Source of the DNA: Halolamina pelagica
Lineage (GTDB): Archaea; Halobacteriota; Halobacteria; Halobacteriales; Haloferacaceae
Assembly (NCBI RefSeq): GCF_900115675.1
Contig: NZ_FOXI01000002.1
Span: 124,001 to 188,000, forward strand
Length of the DNA: 64,000 nt
Reading direction: 5' to 3'
The position numbers and the translations under genes are program-made. Positions 21,771-64,000 of this stretch are shown here, in pieces (the stretch's first letter is position 1; each line of letters begins with the position of its first letter). The notes beneath the pieces are model-generated. The model saw only the letters and a program-made list of their open reading frames with translations, was not told the DNA's origin and made no database searches.

Positions 21771-22217
21771 TCAGAACGAGAGGTGCGAGGTCGAACTCGG
21801 CCCCTCGTCGTCCTCCAGTCCCCCGTCGTGGAGGTAGGTGTACCCGTCGTCGACGAGGTACACCTCGCCGTCCCTGACTTCGATATCGACTGGTCGTAGC
21901 GACGAGCCCGCGGCCGGGCCGTTGCCACAGTCGCCTTCGCAGGCGTCGAACAGCGACCCGTGTTTGGGGCAGATGATCTCGCCGTCCCGGATCGCCGCCC
22001 CCCGGCCGGCGTCGAACCGCTGGTCCTCGTGGGGGCAGTTGTTGAGCCAGGCTTCGACGCCCGGGTCCGCCTCGCAGGGAACGAGGATCGCCTCCCGTTC
22101 GTTCGTGAACGGGTCCTCGACGCTGAACAGGTACGAGCCGTGCTCCGGGACCGCGTCGACGGCCGCGACGTGTGTCCCACGCATCAACGGCAGGTCGACG
22201 CGCCCTGCCAAAAGCAT
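21771..22217 (-). CDS. Rieske [2Fe-2S] protein
   Basis: The 148-aa protein has a single Rieske motif: C61-P-H63 in NNCPHEDQRF and C83-PK-H86 in IICPKHGSLFDACEG, which bind a 2Fe-2S cluster. There is no membrane anchor or Tat signal, so it is a soluble ferredoxin-type Rieske protein. It may pass electrons to an oxygenase or have a housekeeping redox role. The start is uncertain: ATG at 22217 gives an 11-residue hydrophobic leader, while ATG at 22184 begins right at the domain (MRGTHVAAVD). It is divergent from the AOR paralog. Confidence 0.88.
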   Translation of the reverse strand: MLLAGRVDLPLMRGTHVAAVDAVPEHGSYLFSVEDPFTNEREAILVPCEADPGVEAWLNNCPHEDQRFDAGRGAAIRDGEIICPKHGSLFDACEGDCGNGPAAGSSLRPVDIEVRDGEVYLVDDGYTYLHDGGLEDDEGPSSTSHLSF

Positions 22218-22290: not shown

Positions 22291-24141
22291 ATGCAACGGG
22301 AGTCGGTGCTGCGCGTCGATCTCACGCGGGGGGTCGCCAGCCGCGAGACCGTTCCCGAGCGCTGGCGACGGCGCTACCTCGGGGGAAAGGGGCTCGGGGC
22401 ACGCTACCTCTACGACGAGCTGTCGGCCGGCGCCGATCCGTTAGGGCCGGAGAACCGCCTCTGTTTCGCGCTCGGGCCGCTCTCGGGCTACCTCCCGGGC
22501 GAGACCCGCTACGCCGCGGTCACCAAGTCGCCGCTGACCGGCGGGTTCCTCGACTCCTACGCGGGCGGCCAGTTCCCGCTCGCGCTCGCCGGCGCGCTGC
22601 CGGACTGTCTGGCCGTGATCGTCCAGGGCGCCGCCGACGAACCGACGACGCTCGTCGTCGAGGACGGCGACGCCGAACTCGTCCCCGCCGAGAACTGGGG
22701 CGCGGACACCGTCGAAACCGCCGAGGCCTACCCCGACGCGAGCGTCGCCTGTATCGGGCCGGCGGGGGAGAACGAGGTGGCCTACGCCACCGTCGCCTCC
22801 GACGCCGGCGACCATCACGCCGGCCGCGGCGGCGTCGGCGCCGTGATGGGCGCCAAGCGACTGAAAGCCGTCGTGGCCCGCGGCGACCGGCCCGAGATTC
22901 CGCCCGCCATCCAGCAGTTGCGCGAGCGGACCGACGCCGAGTACGCCGACCACGCGACCGGTCGCTGGCAGGCCGCCAGCGGCACCCTCGAGTCGGTGGA
23001 GTTCGCCGACGAGGTGGGGGCGCTCGCGACCGAAGGCTGGCAGGCCGGCCGGTTCGAGGGGAGCGAGGGCGTCGGCATCGACGCGGCCCGCGAGGCCGCG
23101 GTCGAGCGCGAGCGCCCGGACGACCGCGTGCCCGGCGGCTTCCGCGTCGACACCGAGGAGGGGGAGATCGTCCCCCGCGGCGCGGCGCCGATCAGCCTCG
23201 GCGCCGGCCTCGGGATCGACGACTTCGACGCCGTCGCCGCGCTGGGCGCCGCCTGCGACCACCTCGGCGTCGACGTGATCGAGTCGGGCAGTGCCGTCTC
23301 GTGGACCGTGCTCGCGGCCGAGGCCGGCATCGTCGACGAGTCGGTCGAGTTCGGCGACGAGGCGGCCGCCCGCGACCTCGTGGAGCGCATCGCCGGCCGG
23401 GAGGACCCGCTGGCCGACGCGCTGGCAGACGGCGTGGCCGAGGCGGCCGCGTTCGTCGAACGCGAGGCCGGAGCTGACGACACCGCGGCGCCGGACGCCG
23501 ACCTCTCCGGCGAGGAACTGGTGCCGACCGTGAAGGCGATGGCGCTGCCGGGGTACGACCCCCGCGGCGCAGAGGGGATGGCGCTGGCCTACGCGACCAG
23601 CGACCGCGGCGGCTGCCACCGGCGCGCTCGCCCCGTCGAGGAGGAAGTGTTCCACGAGCGGACCCGGGCGGAGACCGTTCGGGAGGTTGCGGAGGCCCAG
23701 ACCGCCCGCTCGGTGCTCTGGAGCCTCGTCGCCGACGACTTCCTGGGCGACCTGCTGCGAGCGGATCTCGGCGCTGAGTGGCTCCAAGCGGTCGGTATCG
23801 ACCACGACGCGGAGTCGCTTGCCCGGACGGGCGAGCGTATCTGGACGCTGATCCGCCTGTTCAACGCCCGCGAGGGGTTCGACCGCGCGGACGACGACCT
23901 GCCGGCCCGCCTCCGGCAGGCTCGCGCCGACGGCGCCGCCGTCGATCCGGAGGCGTTCCAGCGCACGCTCGAAGCGTACTACGAGTACCGGGGCTGGGGG
24001 CGTGACGGGCTCCCGACCCGTGAACTGGTCGGGGCGCTCGACCTCGACGGCGTCGTCGACGCGGCGACGCCGCTCTCGGCGGACGCCCCCGTCGCGTCGG
24101 CCGGCGACGCGACCCTATCCGACGACACCCAGACAGAATGA
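22291..24141 (+). CDS. Aldehyde ferredoxin oxidoreductase (AOR) family protein lacking the [4Fe-4S] cysteines
   Basis: The 616-aa protein has the AOR fold throughout: RRYLGGKGLGARYLYDE near the start, AVTKSPLTGGFLDSYAGG, GRGGVGAVMGAKRLKAVV, and DPRGAEGMALAYATSDRGGCHRRA, all pterin-binding blocks. AORs oxidise aldehydes to acids with a tungsten-bispterin centre and a nearby 4Fe-4S cluster held by CxxCxxxC and a late Cys. Here the first three should fall near residue 265 but the sequence reads AAREAAVERERPDD, and the late one near residue 475 reads SVLWSLVADD. None is present; the five cysteines in the protein lie elsewhere. The second AOR in this window keeps all four. The function is therefore uncertain. 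The stop overlaps the next gene by ATGA. Confidence 0.85.
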   Translation: MQRESVLRVDLTRGVASRETVPERWRRRYLGGKGLGARYLYDELSAGADPLGPENRLCFALGPLSGYLPGETRYAAVTKSPLTGGFLDSYAGGQFPLALAGALPDCLAVIVQGAADEPTTLVVEDGDAELVPAENWGADTVETAEAYPDASVACIGPAGENEVAYATVASDAGDHHAGRGGVGAVMGAKRLKAVVARGDRPEIPPAIQQLRERTDAEYADHATGRWQAASGTLESVEFADEVGALATEGWQAGRFEGSEGVGIDAAREAAVERERPDDRVPGGFRVDTEEGEIVPRGAAPISLGAGLGIDDFDAVAALGAACDHLGVDVIESGSAVSWTVLAAEAGIVDESVEFGDEAAARDLVERIAGREDPLADALADGVAEAAAFVEREAGADDTAAPDADLSGEELVPTVKAMALPGYDPRGAEGMALAYATSDRGGCHRRARPVEEEVFHERTRAETVREVAEAQTARSVLWSLVADDFLGDLLRADLGAEWLQAVGIDHDAESLARTGERIWTLIRLFNAREGFDRADDDLPARLRQARADGAAVDPEAFQRTLEAYYEYRGWGRDGLPTRELVGALDLDGVVDAATPLSADAPVASAGDATLSDDTQTE

Positions 24142-25085
24142 CCGACAGGATCGATCTCGACGACGTCGAACAGCCCGACGAGGAGAACGAGGCCGACCAG
24201 CCCAACCCCGGTGACTGGCTCTGGCGCGGCGAAGGCTCGCCCGACGAGGAGCCCGACGCCCCCGAACGGAGCGTGGACATCGGCGCCGACGACTTCGGGG
24301 ACGAGGACGTCGCGACGCCGCGGATCCCGCGGGAGAACGACGACCGACCGGTCGGCGTTCCCGTGGAGGGCGGCGGCGCCGGTGGGTCGGCAGCCGGGTC
24401 GGGCGGTAGCCCGACCGGCGGCGTCCCGCCGAGCGACGGCGAGGGGCGCGAGGACGCGACCACGAGCGAGGATCCCGCGAACACCGGCGACACGCCCAGC
24501 CGTGCGTGGGGCGAGGCTGCGCGGGAACAGGGTGCGTCAGCCGGGGCGAACGACCCCGGCGGCGCCCAGCCCGGGACGCCGTCGGACGGCGACGGCCCGA
24601 CGCCGAGCGCGAGCCGGACCGCCGAGGGGCACTCCCGGGGCGAGGAGTGGGAGAACGCCCAGCCAGTCGAGCAGTCCGAGTCGACGCCGGGTGCGGCCTC
24701 CCACGGTTCGACGCCGACCCGGACCGCGGAGATGACGATGGCGTTCTCCTACCGGGCGATCCGGCGGTTCGAGAACGTCCACGCCGTCCTCGCCGACGCC
24801 GAGAACTGGACCGACTACCTCGGCATCGTCGGCGACGTGGACGCGACGGTGATCAACAAGTACCAGCGGGACAACGTGCTGGACCTCGACTTCTTCAACG
24901 GCTCCGGCACCGGGCCCGCCGAGCGACTCGCGGCCGTCGGGCCGAACTCGATGTTCCACGCCGAGCGCATGGTGCTCGTCGGCGTCGACGAGCGCGAGCA
25001 GGCGTGGGCCGAGGAGGCCGACTGGGAGTTCATGCCGCTTGAGACGGCGGCGGCGGAAGCCGACTGGGAGCTCGGCGAGAACTGA
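24138..25085 (+). CDS. Protein with disordered acidic N-terminus and conserved C-terminal domain, unknown function
   Basis: The 315-aa protein splits into two parts. Residues 1 to about 195 are low-complexity, acidic, Gly/Pro/Ser/Thr-rich and probably disordered. The remaining about 120 residues look folded: MAFSYRAIRRFENVHAVLADAENWTDYLGIVG, then VINKYQRDNVLDLDFFNGSG and MFHAERMVLVG. I do not recognise the domain with certainty. Its ATG overlaps the AOR stop codon (24138-24141), so it is co-translated with the AOR paralog and could be a partner of it; that is inferred from position only. Confidence 0.6.
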   Translation: MTDRIDLDDVEQPDEENEADQPNPGDWLWRGEGSPDEEPDAPERSVDIGADDFGDEDVATPRIPRENDDRPVGVPVEGGGAGGSAAGSGGSPTGGVPPSDGEGREDATTSEDPANTGDTPSRAWGEAAREQGASAGANDPGGAQPGTPSDGDGPTPSASRTAEGHSRGEEWENAQPVEQSESTPGAASHGSTPTRTAEMTMAFSYRAIRRFENVHAVLADAENWTDYLGIVGDVDATVINKYQRDNVLDLDFFNGSGTGPAERLAAVGPNSMFHAERMVLVGVDEREQAWAEEADWEFMPLETAAAEADWELGEN

Positions 25086-25134
25086 TCGTCCGCCGACCCT
25101 GGGGTTTTTGACTCGACGGCTCAATGTGTGGCCC

Positions 25135-25401
25135 ATGAGTCTGACAGACGCGTTCGAACGGTCCCGAATCCTGACGGTGGCGTTACTGGCCGCGATCGCG
25201 TGGTTGGTGTTCACCGCCGCCCGCGTCCTTGGCCAGTTCGACTTCTGGTCGCCCGAGCCGGTCGGCATGACTCCCGCCGCGGGCGTCGTCGGCCTGCTCG
25301 TGATGGCGGTGACGATCCTGTTCGCCGCCCTGGTGCTGAGCGCCTTCGAGAGCGACGAGCCCGCTCCCGAGGCGTGGCCGCCGGAGGACGTCGCCGAATA
25401 A
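25135..25401 (+). CDS. Small two-helix membrane protein
   Basis: From the ATG at 25135 the protein is 88 aa with two hydrophobic helices: ILTVALLAAIAWLVFTAARVL (about 13-33) and AAGVVGLLVMAVTILFAALVLSAF (about 48-70), and an acidic tail. Its TAA stop (25399-25401) shares a base with the ATG of the zinc-ribbon gene (TAATG), indicating coupled translation. No family is recognised. An upstream in-frame start would add 32 basic residues overlapping the intergenic region, so I reject it. Confidence 0.65.
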   Translation: MSLTDAFERSRILTVALLAAIAWLVFTAARVLGQFDFWSPEPVGMTPAAGVVGLLVMAVTILFAALVLSAFESDEPAPEAWPPEDVAE

Positions 25402-25544
25402 TGCAGTACGTCTGCACCGAGTGTGACTCCATGGCTCGGTTCGGCGCCGAGACCGGGCCCGTCGACACCGAGTGTCCGGTCTGTGAGCAGGTGACCCGCT
25501 GGGAGCCCGCTTTCGAGGCCGAGGCACAGGGGGTGTCGTTCTGA
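25401..25544 (+). CDS. 47-residue zinc-ribbon protein
   Basis: The frame MQYVCTECDSMARFGAETG... has two CxxC pairs, C5-C8 and CPVC about 20 residues later, enough for one zinc or rubredoxin-like iron site. It resembles rubrerythrin-like or zinc-ribbon microproteins common in haloarchaea. The start overlaps the previous stop (TAATG), and its own stop overlaps the next start (TGATG at 25542-25546). Tight coupling on both sides strongly supports it as a real gene despite its size. Confidence 0.7.
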   Translation: MQYVCTECDSMARFGAETGPVDTECPVCEQVTRWEPAFEAEAQGVSF

Positions 25545-25897
25545 TGGCGCTTTCGGTGCGTATCGGCGACCGGCTCGCCGACGCCGCCGCGGAGTGGGCC
25601 GACCAGCGCATGCTCGACGACGATGACGCGCTGGAACAGAAGCTCGAACAGGCGCTGCTGGAGGTCGAACACCTCGCCTCCGGGACGACGGAGATCGAGT
25701 TCGAACTCGACGGGCGGACGCTCCACTACGCGCCCAGCGACGAGCTCGAGGAACTGCTCGCCGAGCAGGCCGAGCGCGTCGACGCCGACCCGTCGGCGGT
25801 GCTCGAACTCCACCTCGAACTGTTCGCTCGCACGTTCCTCCCGGAAGACTCGGTCCAGCCGGGGGCCGGCCCGGGCGCGCCGGTCGACGACTGGTGA
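25544..25897 (+). CDS. Small acidic helical protein, unknown function
   Basis: The 117-aa protein has two long acidic helices near the N-terminus (MLDDDDALEQKLEQALLEVEHL), a strand pair IEFELDGRTLHYAPS, then two helices ELEELLAEQAERV and AVLELHLELFARTFL. The strand-helix-helix end vaguely recalls a ribbon-helix-helix domain, but the surface looks too acidic for DNA binding. It is translationally coupled to the zinc-ribbon gene (TGATG). No function is assigned. Confidence 0.6.
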   Translation: MALSVRIGDRLADAAAEWADQRMLDDDDALEQKLEQALLEVEHLASGTTEIEFELDGRTLHYAPSDELEELLAEQAERVDADPSAVLELHLELFARTFLPEDSVQPGAGPGAPVDDW

Positions 25898-26216: not shown

Positions 26217-26843
26217 CTACAGCAGCTGCGCGACGATCTCGTCCTCGAAGGCCGCAGTTCCGGCGGCGACATGTGCGCCGGCGACGAACAGCGGCTCGTC
26301 CGTCTGGTCGACCAGGTGGTCCGTGAACTCCTCGAGCCACGTCAGCAGGTGCTCGTCGAGGAAGACGCGCTCGAAGCCGACCGTCTCGTCCTGACCGGCG
26401 CGCTGGCGCTCGATCAGGTTCCGCAGGAACGCGAACTCGACGGCGACGTGGTCGTTCTCCTCGCCGTACTCCTCCGGCGGGTTCCAGCCCGCGGCGCCGT
26501 AGCTCGCCTCCACGTCGGCCAGCCCCTCGCCGATGAACTCGGTGTCCTCCCGGTAGTACGTCTCGTGGGGGAGCACCTCCGGGCGCGGACCGACCATCAG
26601 GGCGGTGTACTCCCCGGCGAGTTCGTCGACGACCTCCGCCACGTCCCGGCCCTGGTTGGCGTCGACGAACTCCTCCAGCGCCGCGAAGCCGGCGTCGAGG
26701 TGCTCGTTCACCTCCTCGCCGGGCGTCTCGATCTCCCCCGCGAGGAGGCGCTCGACGAACGCCTCGTCGGGCGTGTCGTGGAACACTTCGATCACGAAGT
26801 CGACCAGTTCGATACGTGCGTCGTAAACGGCGTTATCGTCCAT
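26217..26843 (-). CDS. torD: TorD/DmsD-family chaperone for a molybdoenzyme
   Basis: From the ATG at 26841-26843 the protein is 208 aa and mostly helical. The TorD signature region is present: YTALMVGPRPEVLPHETYY, then ASYGAAGWNPPEEYGEENDHVAVEFAFLRNL. These chaperones bind the Tat signal of a DMSO-reductase-family enzyme and help insert the molybdenum cofactor before export. The obvious client here is the Tat-dependent formate dehydrogenase catalytic subunit encoded divergently at 29240. Its start overlaps the end of the iron-sulfur protein gene by 11 bases, so the two are one operon. Confidence 0.88.
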   Translation of the reverse strand: MDDNAVYDARIELVDFVIEVFHDTPDEAFVERLLAGEIETPGEEVNEHLDAGFAALEEFVDANQGRDVAEVVDELAGEYTALMVGPRPEVLPHETYYREDTEFIGEGLADVEASYGAAGWNPPEEYGEENDHVAVEFAFLRNLIERQRAGQDETVGFERVFLDEHLLTWLEEFTDHLVDQTDEPLFVAGAHVAAGTAAFEDEIVAQLL

Positions 26844-28965
26844 TGTTGGCCCCTTGGAAAACGACCTGCGCGCGGCACTCGTCGCAGTACTCGAAGATGC
26901 TGTGCTCGGTGTCGCCGGCGACGCCCTCGACGAGGTCGCCCACTTCGTCCCGAACCGACTCCATCGACCCGCGGCTGGTGAACGGCGTCCCACAGCGCAC
27001 GCACTCGAGCATCTCGCCCTCGAAAACGGGCTCCCACTCCTCGCCGTCGCGGTTCTCCGGCAGCCGGGAGGGCTCCAGTCCGGGCTCGATCGTGATGGCG
27101 CCCTCCGGACAGCCGCTCTCACACACGCCGCAGTTCACGCAGTCGGCGTGGTTGAACTGGAGTTCGCCGTCGTTCGTGCGCTGGATGGCGTCGGTGGGAC
27201 AGAGCGTCGAACACGTCGGCGTGAGGTTGCAGGCGTCCGAAACCTCCATCCGGCCGAACGTGTCCAGCCCGCGGATCACGTCGCGGTCCGGCTCGGTCTC
27301 CTCGATGATCCGGCGAACCGACTCCAGCGCCCAGTCGTGGGTGGTGAACGGCTCGCGGGGCGAGTCGGGCCGACCGGTGCCGGTCGCCTCGTGCTCGCCG
27401 GTCGGGACCGGGGACGACTCCAGCCCCTCGACGAACGCGTCGAGTTCGCCGGCGAAGGCGGCGGGATCGTCGCCCTCGGGTGCGAAGAAGGCGGTGCGCG
27501 CGCCGAGTTCGAGGTCGCCGGTCGCGACGTTCATCCGGTCGACCAGTTCGGCCTTCGGGTCCGGGCCGGAGTGGAGACACGCGTCGCCACAGCCGACGAT
27601 GGCGACGCCGTCGGCGCCGGCCGCGAGCGCGTGGAGCACGTGAGCCTCGCCCACCGTGTCGGTGCAGTTCACGCGAACCGGGAGGATCGGCTGGTAGCCG
27701 GCGTCCTCGCCGCGGCCGGCGCGGCGCCCATAGCTCTCCAGGGCGTCGGCGGCCTGCTCCGAGCAGACGAACGCGACGACCGGCGACTCGATGCCGGCGT
27801 CGCCGCCGAAGAACTGGGAGACGCGGCCGCCCTCGTCGATGTCGAGCAGCGACTCGACCTCGCGCGCCAGTCGCTCGTTGGTCGGCTCGCGGAGTTCGAC
27901 GGCGCCGGTCGGACAGGCGGAGGTGCAGGCGCCACAGTTCATGCAGGCCGTCTCGTCGAACGCCACCTCGTCGACCGCGGGCCGGGAAACTGCCTCGTGC
28001 GGGCACGCGTCCGTGCACCGCGTACAGCCCTCGACGCCCGAGTCGCCCGAGGCGCAGATGTCCATTTCGATGTCGAGGTGCTGGGGCTTGGTGATCCCGC
28101 CGAGCTGGCTCTCGACGGCGGCAGCGACGCCCCCGTCGAAGTGGGAGAAGTACCCGAGTTGGCCGCCGCGACTCTTCGTCGGGCCGCCGGGGTAGACCAC
28201 CTGATCCGCCTCGAGCGTTCGCTCGACGCCCTCAGGCTCGATGGCGTCGACCGGGCAACACTCCAGATACTCGCCGTCGGGGGCGTCGGGCGCGATGTCG
28301 ACGGGGTAGGAGGTGACGCCCTCGTCGGGCCCCTGCTCGACACACTTCATGCAGCCGATGCAGTCCTCGGTGACGCGGGCTTCGAGCGCCAGTTCGAACT
28401 CGCCGAAGGAACCTGAAACCTCACGCACGCGGCCGCGTTCGACGTCGACCTCGTCGAGGTCGTGTTCGGGATCGCCGAAGTCGCGGCCGTTCGCGATCAG
28501 CGTCACGTCGGCTCGCCCCGAGAGCGCCGACGCCGCGGCCGCGTCCCCGACGACGACGACGTGGTCGCCCGCCTCCTTCGAGACCGTCCGGGAGGGTGAC
28601 TCCTCGCGCAGGCCGGCGACGGTCGCGTCGATGGTGCGGGCGGTCTTCTCCGTCGCCGCGGGTGTGTCGTGCACCCAGCCCGAGCCCTCGCGGTGGTCGA
28701 CGAACGCCGTCGCGTCGGGGTGGAGCCCCTGGGCCTCGGCCATCTCACGGATCCGCCGCTGACAGCCGGCGTCGGGGGCGGTCGCCACCACGTGGTCCAG
28801 GTCGTACTCGTTGACGACGGCGGCGGCTTTCTCGAGGCCGTCGCCACAGAGGTGGCCCGCGCTCGCCACCACCTCCACGTCGTCGTCGCCGACGCCCTCC
28901 CTGACGCCCTCGGCGTCGATGGCATCGGGGGCGCCACAGTCGCAGACGAACGCGCCTACCTTCAT
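26833..28965 (-). CDS. Large multi-cluster iron-sulfur protein with HdrA-like and MvhD-like parts
   Basis: The 710-aa protein is built of electron-transfer modules. Residues 1-75 (FVCDCG, HLCGDG, DAGCQR) resemble an HdrA N-terminal segment. Ferredoxin-type cysteines follow at 202-208 with C236/C237, at 304-321 (CASGDSGVEGCTRCTDAC) and at 341-351 (CMNCGACTSAC). An MvhD/FrhD-like domain spans about 395-500 (VNCTDT, GCGDACLHSGPDPKAELVDRMN). Two further cluster sites follow at 579-589 and 609-619, and a four-cysteine, probably zinc, site at the C-terminus (CVRC and CDEC). No flavin motif is evident. I infer a cytoplasmic electron hub associated with the adjacent formate dehydrogenase; the partner is unproven. 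Confidence 0.8.
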   Translation of the reverse strand: MKVGAFVCDCGAPDAIDAEGVREGVGDDDVEVVASAGHLCGDGLEKAAAVVNEYDLDHVVATAPDAGCQRRIREMAEAQGLHPDATAFVDHREGSGWVHDTPAATEKTARTIDATVAGLREESPSRTVSKEAGDHVVVVGDAAAASALSGRADVTLIANGRDFGDPEHDLDEVDVERGRVREVSGSFGEFELALEARVTEDCIGCMKCVEQGPDEGVTSYPVDIAPDAPDGEYLECCPVDAIEPEGVERTLEADQVVYPGGPTKSRGGQLGYFSHFDGGVAAAVESQLGGITKPQHLDIEMDICASGDSGVEGCTRCTDACPHEAVSRPAVDEVAFDETACMNCGACTSACPTGAVELREPTNERLAREVESLLDIDEGGRVSQFFGGDAGIESPVVAFVCSEQAADALESYGRRAGRGEDAGYQPILPVRVNCTDTVGEAHVLHALAAGADGVAIVGCGDACLHSGPDPKAELVDRMNVATGDLELGARTAFFAPEGDDPAAFAGELDAFVEGLESSPVPTGEHEATGTGRPDSPREPFTTHDWALESVRRIIEETEPDRDVIRGLDTFGRMEVSDACNLTPTCSTLCPTDAIQRTNDGELQFNHADCVNCGVCESGCPEGAITIEPGLEPSRLPENRDGEEWEPVFEGEMLECVRCGTPFTSRGSMESVRDEVGDLVEGVAGDTEHSIFEYCDECRAQVVFQGANNGR

Positions 28966-29199: not shown

Positions 29200-29227
29200 T
29201 CGTACCAGCCAGTGACAGTTGGTACGA
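29200..29227. promoter_or_regulatory. Perfect 8-bp inverted repeat just before fdhA
   Basis: TCGTACCA (29200-29207) and its exact complement TGGTACGA (29220-29227) are separated by 12 bases. The right arm ends 12 bases before the fdhA ATG. Arms one helical turn or two apart are typical of operators bound by a dimeric regulator. In a leaderless promoter this position would cover the start of transcription. The surrounding 274-base divergent region is AT-richer than the genes and also holds short direct repeats (TTCGTGA at 29049 and 29063; GTCCGATG at 29071 and 29083). Confidence 0.55.
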
Positions 29228-29239
29228 CAGGATACAACA

Positions 29240-32200
29240 ATGAGCTCAGAACCAGTCTCCCTCGACCTGGACCGCAGGTCGTTCCTGAAAGCCAGCGCGC
29301 TCGCGGGCGCGGTGGCGCTCGGGGGCGGCGGCGCGGGACAGGCGCTCGCACAAAGTGACGGGGAGGTCGACGGAACTGACGAAGAGGGCGAACTCACGAA
29401 GACGGTCTGTAACTTCTGTGCCGTCGGTTGTGGGTTCCGGGGCGAACGGCAGGGCAACGCCTTCGTCGGGCAGGAGCCTTGGCACGAGAACCCGATAAAC
29501 AACGGATCGCTCTGCTCGAAGGGGGCCGCTATCTACGGCAGCGAGCACTCCGAACGGCGACTCAAGCATCCACTCATCAAGGAAGGTGACACCTCGTGGC
29601 GGAAGGCCGGCTGGGACGAGGCCCTCGAGAAGGTCGGAAACGAACTCAACCAGATCCGGGAGGAGCACGGTCCGGACTCCGTGATGTGGATGGGGTCGGC
29701 CCACTTCTCCAACGAGGAGTCCTACGCGTTCCGGAAGCTCTCGAGCATCTTTGGGACCAACAACGTGGACCACCAGGCTCGGATCTGTCACTCCACCACC
29801 GTCTCCGGCCTCGCGAACACGTGGGGCTACGGGGCGATGACGAACACGATCAACGACTACCGCAACTTCGACCTCAACCTCATCATCGGGCAGAACCCCG
29901 CCGAGGCCCACCCGATCGCGATGCAGCACATCCTCGAGGGCCAGCAGCGCGGCGGCGATATCGCCGTCGTCGACCCGCGGTTCACCAAGACCGCGGCCAA
30001 GGGCGACTACTACTACCGGATGCGGCCCGGGACCGACGTGGCCCTGATGATGGGCCTGATGAAGTACCTGCGCGACGAGCAGAACCTCGACCGGGAGATG
30101 CTCGAAGAGCGGGTCATGGGGTGGCCCGACGTGGAGGTCGAACTCGACCAGTACGACCTCGAGACCGTCGAGGACATCACGTGGGTCAGCCAGGAGCAGA
30201 TCCGCGAACTCGGCGACCTGATCGCCGAGAACGCGCCGAAGGTCCAGATCGAGTGGGCGATGGGCGGGACCCAGCACAACAACGGGACCCAGAACATCCG
30301 CTCCTACGCGCTCACCTCGCTGTCCTCCGGGAGCGCCGCCCAGTCCGGCGGCGGCCTGCAGGTCATGCGTGGCCACGCGAACGTGCAGGGGGCAACCGAC
30401 CTCGCAGTCGCGAGCCACATCCTGCCCGGTTACTACTCGGTCGGTTCGCCCGGTTCCTGGCAGTACTGGAGCGAGGTCTGGTCGAAGAGCCCCTTCACGA
30501 GCGGCGAGATCACCTTCGAGGAGCTCTACGACGAGTACGACCTGATGCCGGAGGACCGGTATCTGGAACAGTCCGACGGCGACGAGATCGACGACTCGTT
30601 CCCGAGCGAACGGTCGATGATGTTCCAGAAGGGGATGACCGTCGCGCGGTGGTTCGACGGCGGGCTTCCCCAGGAGGAGCGGCTCAACGAGACGCCGCTC
30701 TACCAGCCCGACGAGCTGAAGGCCGTCGTCATCTGGGGCCACTCGCTCAACTCCATCTCGGAGATGCAGAAGATGAAGGACGCGATGGACCGGATGGACC
30801 TCGTCGTCGTCGTCGACGTGTTCCCCTCGGTGGCGTCGGTGCTCTCGGACCAGGACAACGTCGTGATCCTCTCGGCGGCGTCCCAGTACGAGCACCACCG
30901 GTCGCTCACCAACTCCCACCGCTCGGTCCAGTGGTCCGAGCCGGTGCGGCCGCCGTCGCACAACACGAAGCCCGACCTCGAGATCATGCAGGAGCTCGCC
31001 GACCGCTTCGGCTTCGGCGACCACTTCGACTGGGGCTCGGGCTCCGGCCTCTACAACGGCAAGAGCACCTACGAGGAGGTGCTCCGGGAGGTCAACCTCG
31101 GCGTCCGGACGATCGGCTACCAGCAGGATCCCCAGCGCCTGCAGGAACAGCAGGAGTACGACTACGCGTTCTCCACGGACAACCTCCGGTGTGAGGAGGA
31201 GGGACTCCCCGTCTCCGGGGAGTTCTGGCAGCTCCCGTGGCCCTGCTGGGGCGAAGGTCACCCGGGAACGCCGATCATCTGGAACGACGACCTGGACCCG
31301 CGCAACGGCGGGCAGGACTTCCGCGCTCGGTGGGGCGTTCAGGCCCCGACACCCGAGGAGTGGGCGGACATGGACACGGACAAGGAGTACCCCATGCAGG
31401 AGACCTACGACCAGGGCGGCGAGGAGGCCCTGAACCTCCTGCGTGATCCGTACACGCCCGACTGGGAGTCCGACTTCGACAACGAAGTCCAGGGCGTCCC
31501 GCAGTACCCCGGCTTCGCGACGACGCTGCCGGAGGACTACAGCAACCCGGATCAGCTCTCGCTGCCCTACGCCTACGCGCTCGACCCCGACCAGTCCGTC
31601 TACGACACGGCGGTCGCGATGAACGAGCGCTACGGGGCCGACTTCGACGAGGACTTCTACGCCCAGTACGACTTCGCACAGCCGGACGCGCCGACCGGGC
31701 GTGGCCGGGCTCGTGCAGTCGTCTGGGGCTTCATGGACACCGTGCCGGTTCACCGCGAACCGGTTGAGAGTCCGCGCCCCGACCTGGTCGAGGAGTGGCC
31801 CGCCAACGGCCAGCAGACCAACTTCTACCGGCTCGACCAGAACAACGCGGCCGTCCAGGAGCGGGCGACCGCGGCGGCGAACGATCCCGGCGACGAGTCG
31901 GCGTTCAGCACGGTGATGACCACGGGCCGGCAGGTCGAGCACCAGGGCGGTGGGGCGGAGTCCCGCTCCAACGAGTACCTGGCCGACCTCCAGCCCCACA
32001 TGTACGTGGAGATCCACCCGAACATGGCCGAGGAGATGGGGATCGACGGCGGCGACCTCGTCGTCGTCTCCACCACCGACCGCGGGTCGGTGCTGGTCAA
32101 GGCTCGCGTCACCCCGCGTCCCGGCCACGGCCCCGAGGAAGAGGAGATCTTCCTCCCGTTCCACTGGGGCGGTATCGCGAAGGGTGAGGACCTACTCGAG

Positions 32201-32452
32201 AAGTACCCCGACGGCAACGAGCCGTTCGCGATCGGGGACTCGGTGAACTTCATCACCTCCCGCGGCTACGACGTGGAGACCCAGATGCAGGAGACCAAGG
32301 CGGCGCAGGCGAAGGTCCGCCCGGCCACCCAGGAGCTCGTCGACGAGCTCAACATGGACGTGGACCTGGAGACGTTCACGTTCCCGCAGGACGAGGCCGG
32401 CTTCGGCCAGCAGAAGGACTTCGACACCCGCGACAACACGACGGTTCAGTAA
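29240..32452 (+). CDS. fdhA: Formate dehydrogenase catalytic subunit, FdnG type, Tat-exported
   Basis: The ATG at 29240 gives 1070 aa. A Tat signal (DRRSFLKASALAGAVALGGG, about residues 11-30) directs export. A 4Fe-4S site follows at C57, C60, C64 and C92. The molybdenum ligand region ARICHSTTVSGLANTWGYGAMTN matches FdnG, with C183 in place of the bacterial selenocysteine and the catalytic His184. QNPAEAHPIAMQH is another FdnG hallmark. The C-terminal quarter is the MopB pterin-binding domain. The enzyme should oxidise formate outside the cytoplasm and pass electrons via FdhB to the membrane. Length is close to FdnG (1015 aa). First gene of a four-gene operon. Confidence 0.92.
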   Translation: MSSEPVSLDLDRRSFLKASALAGAVALGGGGAGQALAQSDGEVDGTDEEGELTKTVCNFCAVGCGFRGERQGNAFVGQEPWHENPINNGSLCSKGAAIYGSEHSERRLKHPLIKEGDTSWRKAGWDEALEKVGNELNQIREEHGPDSVMWMGSAHFSNEESYAFRKLSSIFGTNNVDHQARICHSTTVSGLANTWGYGAMTNTINDYRNFDLNLIIGQNPAEAHPIAMQHILEGQQRGGDIAVVDPRFTKTAAKGDYYYRMRPGTDVALMMGLMKYLRDEQNLDREMLEERVMGWPDVEVELDQYDLETVEDITWVSQEQIRELGDLIAENAPKVQIEWAMGGTQHNNGTQNIRSYALTSLSSGSAAQSGGGLQVMRGHANVQGATDLAVASHILPGYYSVGSPGSWQYWSEVWSKSPFTSGEITFEELYDEYDLMPEDRYLEQSDGDEIDDSFPSERSMMFQKGMTVARWFDGGLPQEERLNETPLYQPDELKAVVIWGHSLNSISEMQKMKDAMDRMDLVVVVDVFPSVASVLSDQDNVVILSAASQYEHHRSLTNSHRSVQWSEPVRPPSHNTKPDLEIMQELADRFGFGDHFDWGSGSGLYNGKSTYEEVLREVNLGVRTIGYQQDPQRLQEQQEYDYAFSTDNLRCEEEGLPVSGEFWQLPWPCWGEGHPGTPIIWNDDLDPRNGGQDFRARWGVQAPTPEEWADMDTDKEYPMQETYDQGGEEALNLLRDPYTPDWESDFDNEVQGVPQYPGFATTLPEDYSNPDQLSLPYAYALDPDQSVYDTAVAMNERYGADFDEDFYAQYDFAQPDAPTGRGRARAVVWGFMDTVPVHREPVESPRPDLVEEWPANGQQTNFYRLDQNNAAVQERATAAANDPGDESAFSTVMTTGRQVEHQGGGAESRSNEYLADLQPHMYVEIHPNMAEEMGIDGGDLVVVSTTDRGSVLVKARVTPRPGHGPEEEEIFLPFHWGGIAKGEDLLEKYPDGNEPFAIGDSVNFITSRGYDVETQMQETKAAQAKVRPATQELVDELNMDVDLETFTFPQDEAGFGQQKDFDTRDNTTVQ

Positions 32453-32453
32453 A

Positions 32454-33131
32454 ATGTCCACAAACGAATCAAAGACCGAGATGATGAGCCAGGGGGTGAT
32501 GGGCACCGGCGACGACACGCGCATCTTCCCCGACGTGGCTGCGTGTATCGACTGTGGCGGCTGTGTAGTCGCCTGTAACCGAACGTGGGACATGCCCCGC
32601 GACGAACAGCGCATCAGCATCTCCACGATGCTGGAGGGCGAGGAAGGCGCCGAGGGACTCAACGCGAGCCCCTCCCAGGCGATCGGTCAGGGCGAGAATC
32701 CGGGCGAGACCAGCGTCCCGATGCAGTGTTACCACTGCGAGAACGCGCCCTGCGTGTCGGTCTGTCCGGTCGACGCCCTCGTCAAGAAGGACGACGGGTT
32801 CGTCGACGTGCGCGACGACGTCTGTATCGGCTGCCAGTACTGCCTGTCCGCCTGTCCGTTCGGCGCCCCGCAGTTCCCGGGCTCGAACGACGGCTCGGCG
32901 GAGATCTTCGGCACCGGCGGTACGATGGACAAGTGTACGATGTGTCAGGACCGACAGGAGGTCGGCAAGGGGCCGGCGTGTGCCGAGGAGTGCGCGACCG
33001 ACGCCATCCTCGTGGGCACGACCGAGCAGATCGCTGACGAGCTCGACAAACGAGACTCCGGGACGTTCTTCAACGACGACGCGATGGAGATCGTCTTCGG
33101 TGCCGACGACGCGGAGGCGTTCGGCGTATGA
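32454..33131 (+). CDS. fdhB: Formate dehydrogenase iron-sulfur subunit
   Basis: The 225-aa protein has sixteen cysteines in four groups: CIDCGGCVVAC, CYHCENAPCVSVC, CIGCQYCLSAC and CTMC with CAEEC, enough for four 4Fe-4S clusters as in FdnH. It would wire FdhA to the membrane cytochrome. Unlike E. coli FdnH there is no C-terminal transmembrane helix; the two-helix protein encoded next may replace it. There is no Tat signal of its own, suggesting export together with FdhA. ATG at 32454, two bases after the fdhA stop. Confidence 0.9.
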   Translation: MSTNESKTEMMSQGVMGTGDDTRIFPDVAACIDCGGCVVACNRTWDMPRDEQRISISTMLEGEEGAEGLNASPSQAIGQGENPGETSVPMQCYHCENAPCVSVCPVDALVKKDDGFVDVRDDVCIGCQYCLSACPFGAPQFPGSNDGSAEIFGTGGTMDKCTMCQDRQEVGKGPACAEECATDAILVGTTEQIADELDKRDSGTFFNDDAMEIVFGADDAEAFGV

Positions 33132-62185: not shown

Positions 62186-64000
62186 TCAGTCGTCGGCGGG
62201 GGCCGAGCCGCCGGCGGAGACGCCGGTGCCCGGACCCATGTCGATGCCGAGGTCGTCGAGCTTCTCGTCGGGGACGACGCCGTCGACCCAGCCGCGGTGC
62301 TCGTAGTACTCCTCCTTCATCGCGTCGAGTTCGCAGAGCTCGCCCTCGATCCCGCCGCCGGCGGGCACGGCGTCCTCGGCGCCCTCGACGAAGCGGTCCG
62401 GCAGCGAGTCGTCGTCGCCGTCGAAGCCGGCGAGGTTGTTGTAGTAGCGTTCGAGGTTGTAGACGCGCTCGCCGGCCTCCATCAGCTCCTCCTCGCCCAC
62501 GGAGCGGCCGGTCATCCCGTTGTACTGGTCGATGTACTCCTCGATCCCTTCGGCGAAGGCGTTGAACTTGCAGATGTCGAAGGAGTCCGAGATGGCGTGG
62601 AGGTCCTGGAACGTCGCCGTGAGTTCGCCCTTCCCCTCCCACTCGGTGGGGTCGACCTTCTCCGGGATGCCCAGGATCTCCGCCGCGGGCGTGTAGCCGC
62701 GCAGGTGGCAGGCGCCGCGGTTGGAGGTCGCGTAGCCGATCCCCATGCCCTTCAGGCCGCGCGGGTCGTAGGCGGCGATGGCCTGCCCCTTCACGTCGAG
62801 GCGGCAGTCGTGGGCGCCGAGCGCTTCGGCGGCCCGCTTCTGGCCCTCCGCGAGCGTGTCCGCGAGGTCACCCTCGCGCTTGCCGATCTTCTCGATCATC
62901 TCGGTCATCGCGTCCACGTCGCCCCACTCGATGCCCTCGTCGATGTAGCCCTTCTCGGTGGCCTCCATCGCGAACGCGAGGATGTTCCCGGTCTCGATGC
63001 TGTCGATCCCGAGGTCGTTGCACTGGTCCATCATGACCGCGATCATGTCGCGGTCGTCGTTCATCGAGTTCGGGCCGAGCGCCCACGCGGGCTCGTACTC
63101 GTAGGACTCCATGCGGACGTTGAGGTCCTGGCCCTTGTGGTGGACGTCGACCTCGACCTCCTTCTTGCAGGCGACCGGACAGGAGTGACAGGTCGGGTCG
63201 TCGACGAGGATGTTCTCCTCGACGTTCTCCCCGGACACCTTCTCGGAGTCGATGTTGGGTTCGTCGGGCTCCTCGTCGGCCTCCATGCTGGTGGAGGTGA
63301 AGCGGCCGTTCCGCGTCGGGAGGCCGTCCATCTCCTCGGTGAGGTTCATCAGGACGTTCGTCCCGTACACCGAGAGCCCGCCCTCGTTGGGCGCGGTCAC
63401 GTCGGACTCCTGGATGGCCTGCATCGCGGCCTTGTGGCCCTCCATGAACGTCTCGCGGTCGGCCGGCTTCGGCATCTCCGTCCCAGACTTGACGACGACG
63501 GCCTTGAGGTTCTTCGAGCCCATCACCGCGCCGGTACCCCCGCGGCCCGAGGCGCGGTCGTCCTCGTTGATGATGCAGGCGTAGCGGACCTGGTTCTCGG
63601 CGCCGGGGCCGATGGCCATCGTCGAGAGGTTCTTGCCGTAGGACCCGTCGACCTCCTCCTCGAGGGTGTCGATCGCGTCGTGGATGCCGTCGCCCCAGAT
63701 GTGGCTGGCGTCACGGAGTTCGACCTCGCCGTCCTCGACGACGGCGTAGACGGGCTCGTCGGCCTTCCCTTCGAACAGGAGGCCGTCGAAGCCGGCCCAC
63801 TTCAGGCGGGCGCCGCTCCACCCGCCGTGGTGGGAGTCGGTCACCGTCCCCGTCAGCGGGGACTTGGTGACGACGGCGATCCGGCCGCTCATCGGCGTCT
63901 GCGTGCCCGTGAGCGGGCCGTTCATGAAGGCGAGGAGGTTCTCCTCGCCCAGCGGTTCGACGTCGGTCCCGTTGTCGAACACGTATTTCACGCCGAGGCC
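62186..64000 (-). CDS. aor: Aldehyde ferredoxin oxidoreductase, cluster-type (5' end cut)
   Basis: The gene runs off the right edge, so its N-terminus is outside; the visible frame is open to base 64000. It has all four cluster ligands: TCHSCPVACKKEVEV (three cysteines) and DICKFN (the fourth). Pterin-binding blocks include AVVTKSPLTGTVTDSHHGGW, SGRGGTGAVMGSKNLKAVVV and YDPRGLKGMGIGYATSNRGACHLRGY. It should be an active tungsten enzyme oxidising aldehydes to acids with ferredoxin in the cytoplasm. The other AOR copy at 22291 has the same blocks but no cluster cysteines. Last residues are GGSAPADD. Confidence 0.92.
   Translation of the reverse strand, partial: GLGVKYVFDNGTDVEPLGEENLLAFMNGPLTGTQTPMSGRIAVVTKSPLTGTVTDSHHGGWSGARLKWAGFDGLLFEGKADEPVYAVVEDGEVELRDASHIWGDGIHDAIDTLEEEVDGSYGKNLSTMAIGPGAENQVRYACIINEDDRASGRGGTGAVMGSKNLKAVVVKSGTEMPKPADRETFMEGHKAAMQAIQESDVTAPNEGGLSVYGTNVLMNLTEEMDGLPTRNGRFTSTSMEADEEPDEPNIDSEKVSGENVEENILVDDPTCHSCPVACKKEVEVDVHHKGQDLNVRMESYEYEPAWALGPNSMNDDRDMIAVMMDQCNDLGIDSIETGNILAFAMEATEKGYIDEGIEWGDVDAMTEMIEKIGKREGDLADTLAEGQKRAAEALGAHDCRLDVKGQAIAAYDPRGLKGMGIGYATSNRGACHLRGYTPAAEILGIPEKVDPTEWEGKGELTATFQDLHAISDSFDICKFNAFAEGIEEYIDQYNGMTGRSVGEEELMEAGERVYNLERYYNNLAGFDGDDDSLPDRFVEGAEDAVPAGGGIEGELCELDAMKEEYYEHRGWVDGVVPDEKLDDLGIDMGPGTGVSAGGSAPADD

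Follow-up and report, generated by a model that had tools for sequence, protein, structure and literature searches.

A cluster-less AOR-fold protein of haloarchaea that may hold a pterin cofactor in formate dehydrogenase maturation

Related enzymes and maturation factors

Enzymes of the AOR family surround their tungsten with a characteristic set of residues: E313, H448 and Y427 (1AOR numbering throughout) are universally conserved around the metal and Y312, Y452, T243 and E311 highly conserved, and Mg is bound through the main chain of N93 and A183 (PMC12096430). A damaged cluster site has been described in one member, WOR4 of Pyrococcus furiosus, for which no activity was found (PMC12096430); a single Cys is changed in WOR4 and a 3Fe–4S cluster is kept, whereas all four cluster Cys have been lost in the haloarchaeal clade considered here.

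A second point of comparison is FdhD, the sulfurtransferase and cofactor chaperone of bacterial formate dehydrogenase (FDH), which carries out the sulfuration in E. coli. The step proposed below for the cluster-less protein is the same one, the giving of a matured bis-pterin cofactor to FDH (PMC10609526), although FdhD belongs to an unrelated family and is absent from all haloarchaeal genomes searched. A 2023 review named as an open question how cofactor insertion and sulfuration occur in halobacterial FDHs without fdhD, and which proteins are responsible (PMC10609526). The cluster-less protein and YqeC are concrete candidates. In bacteria, YqeC is associated with SelD/YqeB and molybdenum hydroxylases (PMC2276186, PMC11448449), and C. 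difficile lacking it showed no clear phenotype (PMC11448449). The haloarchaeal YqeC proteins resemble the YqeC of selenium-dependent molybdenum hydroxylases in exceeding the family cut-offs (TIGR03172 and PF19842), but differ in that they go with FDH and the cluster-less AOR.

A full-length AOR fold without the cluster site

The window, a 64,000-nucleotide stretch of a Halolamina pelagica contig, contains at 22291–24141 on the forward strand a single open frame of 616 amino acids, without internal stop or frameshift. Pfam assigns AFOR_N (217.7 bits, cut-off 29.8) and AFOR_C (261.2 bits, cut-off 27) to its product and nothing else, the FdhD domain PF02634 giving no match. The AlphaFold2 model (pLDDT 92.5, pTM 0.93) follows the AOR and FOR structures over the whole length: 1AOR (1aor_A; Z 48.1, r.m.s.d. 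1.8 Å, 565 residues), the FOR 1B25 (Z 49.3, 2.0 Å, 574 residues) and 9MQX (Z 48.8). The product is a full-length AOR-fold protein, of the AOR/WOR family by homology; its best-matching named genomes are those of Halolamina rubra, H. salifodinae and H. pelagica (87–95% identity).

A first-pass annotation of the window had claimed that all four cluster cysteines are missing, so that the protein cannot hold a 4Fe–4S cluster. Both statements stand. In a MAFFT alignment the columns of 1AOR Cys288, Cys291, Cys295 and Cys494 hold a gap, D, G and D, respectively, and the phmmer alignment to solved AORs also places non-Cys residues at all four positions; the protein has no cluster ligands. Across 92 aligned orthologues, the four columns are free of Cys throughout and no CxxC occurs in the former cluster region, and the deepest orthologues (48–56% identity, from other families) likewise lack the four Cys. 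The same annotation had offered the AOR gene at 62186–64000 (reverse strand) as a complete internal control; this paralogue has all four Cys and does serve as a valid control, although the window ends within the gene and so truncates it; the full gene is present in locus L001.

The losses extend beyond the cluster ligands. The former CxxCxxxC region and the residues after it (aa 273–298, 23107–23184, RERPDDRVPGGFRVDTEEGEIVPRGA; aligned to 1AOR 284–313) contain PRGA in place of the catalytic PEYE. Thus E311-Y312-E313 has become R-G-A in the window protein and, across the 92 orthologues, E311 is replaced by R in 91, Y312 by G in all and E313 by A, G or S in all. The fourth Cys has gone together with the second pterin motif, D489xxGLC494, which is replaced by WxLxxD (W477 to D482, 23719–23736); the W and the D are each present in 91 of the 92, the remaining row being a gap. 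The resulting signature, PRG[AGS] ... LW[SC]xxxD, is common to the most divergent orthologues too.

The earlier description of the pterin-binding motifs as intact therefore holds in part. R76 is kept (85 of 92), as is the first DxxGxD motif (aa 323–328, 23257–23274; 1AOR 338–343), in which D343 is invariant and D338 is present in 82 of 92 orthologues and N in the rest; the second motif is not, and two pterins may accordingly not be bound as they are in AOR. Similarly, pocket conservation applies to one side: T243, Y427 and H448 are, like D343, unchanged in 92 of 92 orthologues, but the E311/Y312/E313 side is lost, so that the second-shell set of AOR enzymes is half present. The clade also carries Y for N93 and H for A183; because the Mg ligands are main-chain groups, these changes alone would not bar Mg–pterin binding. 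As judged from the alignments, the pocket has kept one half and lost its acid–base half, and we are almost certain that both the cluster and catalysis have been lost in this clade.

Three Cys are invariant in the cluster-less orthologues, at aa 154, 322 and 442. We considered whether any could form a replacement cluster elsewhere and rejected this, as Cys322 and Cys442 are shared with cluster-bearing AORs and there is no CxxC near the old site. Cys442-His443 is the sole invariant Cys-His at the metal site; the pair is common in normal AORs too and is thus no special sign.

Distribution, phylogeny and selection

A search for further cluster-less homologues, as had been suggested, found orthologues in 122 of 170 genomes of the same family and in 111 of 214 genomes sampled across the order Halobacteriales, the two sets overlapping in some genomes. 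In the tree, the cluster-less proteins group in a single clade (SH-aLRT 100). The closest relatives of this clade, a haloarchaeal sister clade (L114–L119, L187 and L188; 44–46% identity), have HH for R182/A183 in common with it, as well as an aromatic residue at position 489, but retain the four Cys together with E311-Y312-E313, which establishes that the cluster was lost. The non-haloarchaeal AOR matches examined in one scan of genome contigs keep the cluster Cys. Our literature searches brought up no cluster-less AOR and, to our knowledge, this clade would be the first in the AOR family in which the cluster has been lost entirely.

The gene is under purifying selection: dN/dS is 0.10–0.16 when Halolamina species are compared and 0.09 within Haloarcula. 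Together with the agreement of 91 other sequences with the window protein, this excludes sequencing error, which had been named as a possible refutation, as well as a pseudogene or decay.

Genomic context

To describe the surroundings of the gene we used 67 cluster-less loci, each 7 kb or longer, with 12 Asgard, bacterial and other Cys-bearing loci excluded. The recurring neighbours are YqeC (38 loci), an FDH-type CISM gene (31), TorD (22), DUF7124 (19), a MobA-like gene (13) and archaeal MoaA (7). YqeC, FDH, TorD, MobA or MoaA lies near the cluster-less gene in 59 of the 67, in varied orders and orientations; in three of the other eight, MoaD/ThiS is directly downstream. YqeC is divergent in Halorubrum and on the same strand in Natronococcus, a YqeC–MobA pair stands beside the gene in Haloarcula and Haladaptatus, FDH modules do so in Halolamina and Halobacterium, and MoaD/ThiS is immediately downstream in Halomarina and Haloplanus. 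Given these differing arrangements, the positional link has probably arisen more than once.

Counted by genome, YqeC lies within 4 kb of the cluster-less gene in 65 of 121, YqeC or FDH near it in 80 of 122, and FDH-alpha within 10 kb in 43 of 114. Among 61 Cys-bearing AOR paralogues taken from 26 related genomes, none has YqeC within 4 kb. The linkage of the cluster-less gene to FDH and cofactor genes exceeds what chance would give.

In the window, the stop of the cluster-less gene overlaps by ATGA the start of a DUF7124 gene (24138–25085, forward strand), whose product combines an acidic disordered N-terminus with PF23439 (129.7 bits). The co-occurrence of the two genes that the first-pass annotation had suggested checking is real but partial: the 19 DUF7124 genes are immediately downstream, and 39 DUF7124 sequences occur over all fetched loci. 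A profile search of DUF7124 against the PDB gave no sequence match at E ≤ 1, and no literature on it was found. Two small genes keep the same downstream order, one for a membrane-type protein without a Pfam match (25129–25398, forward; 18 of 73 loci by tblastn) and one for a 117-aa protein (25544–25897, forward; 19 of 73). They are followed by a TorD/NarJ-type chaperone (26217–26930, reverse; PF02613, 90.9 bits) and, on the forward strand, by an FDH catalytic subunit with a Tat signal and an ARICH active-site motif (FdhA, 29219–32452; PF00384, PF01568 and PF04879), the best solved relative of which is the FdhA 9vap_A (E = 5.7e-212), and its Fe–S beta subunit (32454–33128, forward; FDH3_beta/DmsB-like, Fer4_11).

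Between TorD and the Tat-exported FdhA lies an HdrA/FlpD-like multi-4Fe–4S protein (26833–28965, reverse; PF02662 and Fer4 families; 16 of 73 loci), which accompanies this FDH in loci of Haloarcula, Natronococcus and Halobacterium as well. Upstream of the cluster-less AOR and divergent from it is a Rieske-type 2Fe–2S protein (21771–22217); we rejected it as an electron partner, as it occurs in 4 of 73 loci only, all from Halolamina.

Co-occurrence with YqeC

YqeC is a near-obligate companion of the cluster-less gene. Within the family, 121 genomes have both genes, one has the cluster-less gene only (G077, 79% complete), 17 have YqeC only and 31 have neither; across the order the corresponding counts are 110, one (G286, 77% complete), 23 and 80. 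YqeC thus accompanies 121 of 122 family genomes with the gene compared with 17 of 48 without, and 110 of 111 compared with 23 of 103 in the order. The association survives stratification by genus (P = 2 × 10−11), and in six genera (g1, g9, g19, g20, g21 and g23) some or all of the genomes without the gene are also without YqeC. In one Halolamina genome (G050, 97% complete) the gene, YqeC and Fdh-alpha are all missing.

A dedicated YqeC copy may travel along with the cluster-less gene. One genus includes seven genomes with two YqeC copies and a cluster-less AOR (G023, G024, G026, G031, G032, G034 and G037) and five with one copy and no cluster-less AOR (G028–G030, G035 and G036).

The haloarchaeal YqeCs have GAGGKK[TS] in common, and a profile search against the PDB gave no sequence match at E ≤ 1. 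By its predicted structure (pLDDT 96.4), YqeC has a SIMIBI-type NTPase fold, the matches including SRP54/FtsY (Z 12), MeaB (11.2), UreG (10.8) and HypB (10.6). MeaB, UreG and HypB act in the loading or gating of metal cofactors. The likeness of the modelled fold to these three makes a hand-over role for YqeC reasonable without proving it, and SRP GTPases match the model as well as the metallochaperones do.

Formate dehydrogenases without FdhD

FdhD and FdhE were both rejected as haloarchaeal maturation factors: FdhD was absent from all 170 family genomes and all 214 order genomes in searches in which control genomes gave matches, and FdhE from 35 of 35 haloarchaeal genomes. An Fdh-alpha-like gene (E ≤ 1e-100) is present in all 122 family genomes with the cluster-less gene and in 33 of the 48 without it, so the cluster-less protein is dispensable for some FDHs. 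We judged the presence of an FDH too weak by itself to prove a role connected with FDH, because eight of ten FDH-less genomes checked have no bis-MGD enzyme of any kind and presence therefore cannot separate FDH from molybdenum enzymes generally.

A tree of 42 FDHs, a hand-chosen sample, resolves four haloarchaeal groups (A1, A2, B and C) besides the window type. Groups A1 and B (the latter with RMCHAST) come mainly from genomes with the cluster-less gene, the exceptions being G144 (84% complete) and G012 and G015, which have YqeC. In several genomes (G028, G030 and G035) the group C gene lies next to YqeC. Group A2 comes, in this sample, only from genomes without the cluster-less gene, although bit scores suggest that an A2-like FDH is also present in a few genomes with it (G117 and G072). 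All FDHs of the four groups have R[LM]CH, compared with ARICH in the window FdhA. This distribution would fit a system in which cofactor maturation by the cluster-less AOR and YqeC serves particular FDHs, not every one.

Proposed role and alternatives

The first-pass annotation had listed storage or transport of the tungsten cofactor among its options, and the context (YqeC, MobA, MoaA, MoaD/ThiS, TorD and FDH) favours it. On the sequence evidence, we give about an even chance to the reading that this redox-dead AOR-fold protein holds a pterin–metal cofactor, a Mo or W bis-pterin or a precursor of it, during FDH maturation. MoaA, MoaD and MobA would make the cofactor; the AOR fold would take it after metal insertion, after guanylylation by MobA or after both, and hold it in the kept half-pocket. 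YqeC may then hydrolyse NTP and drive the hand-over, with TorD keeping apo-FdhA receptive. More speculatively, the cluster-less AOR could replace the FdhD step, with the invariant Cys442 beside His443 as a possible sulfur relay. The wider proposal, that FdhD-less haloarchaeal FDH is matured by a new system in which an AOR-derived cofactor chaperone or sulfuration platform is driven by YqeC, is more tentative, and we would sooner doubt it than assume it. If it is true, a tungsto-enzyme has been turned into a factory for another enzyme, and YqeC, a family without a known mechanism, would gain a fold and a partner.

The protein could still be a tungsten oxidoreductase that passes electrons from the metal straight to a partner protein or soluble acceptor, the other-acceptor option of the first-pass annotation. 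The first pterin motif, R76, T243, Y427 and H448 are invariant or nearly so, and Fe–S partner proteins lie nearby in some loci; no one redox partner, however, is kept across all loci. Furthermore, known AORs have E311, Y312 and E313 flanking W (PMC12096430); none of the 92 orthologues retains these residues, which went along with the cluster and are kept in the cluster-bearing sister, and this disfavours a simple swap of electron acceptor. We regard this explanation as unlikely.

We consider it equally unlikely that the protein is an enzyme in its own right, with non-redox chemistry (a hydratase, lyase or similar) in the AOR pocket and neighbours that merely supply cofactor. Acetylene hydratase is a known non-redox tungsten enzyme and provides a precedent, and the pocket, although remodelled by the arrival of Arg and Gly at E311/Y312, is strongly conserved. 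The recurring partners are nonetheless cofactor and FDH genes rather than conserved metabolic pathway genes, in contrast to the cluster-bearing sister clade, two loci of which (L132 and L133) have aldehyde dehydrogenases or an aldo/keto reductase around the gene, a context of aldehyde catabolism.

Less probable again is a structural or regulatory role, as a cofactor-free subunit of a single FDH complex. The proximity of FDH-alpha in the genomes counted above would suit it, but the gene is linked to at least three FDH types (the window type, A1 and B), elsewhere it stands with YqeC or MobA without a nearby FDH, and the retained pterin side has conserved residues. Storage or sensing of tungstate, molybdate or pterin cofactor with a purely indirect effect on FDH, to which the kept cofactor-binding side, the lost catalysis and the MoaD/ThiS neighbour of some genera would be suited, is about as improbable, as it leaves the near-obligate YqeC partner and the match to FDH subclades unexplained.

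Additional loci

A 216-aa protein without a Pfam or NCBIfam match is encoded near the FDH of one cluster-less locus (L070, 10488–11135) and has homologues in 11 loci. The third AOR paralogue of the H. pelagica genome itself (L130, contig C12: 2744–3025, 3044–4801 and 13841–15364) adjoins a ThiS/MoaD gene, with yqeC and a MobA-like gene about 10 kb away. In genome G037, the mobA–yqeC–cluster-less AOR genes are adjoined by a gene for a CobW/ZigA-like metallochaperone GTPase (L131, 9220–10350).
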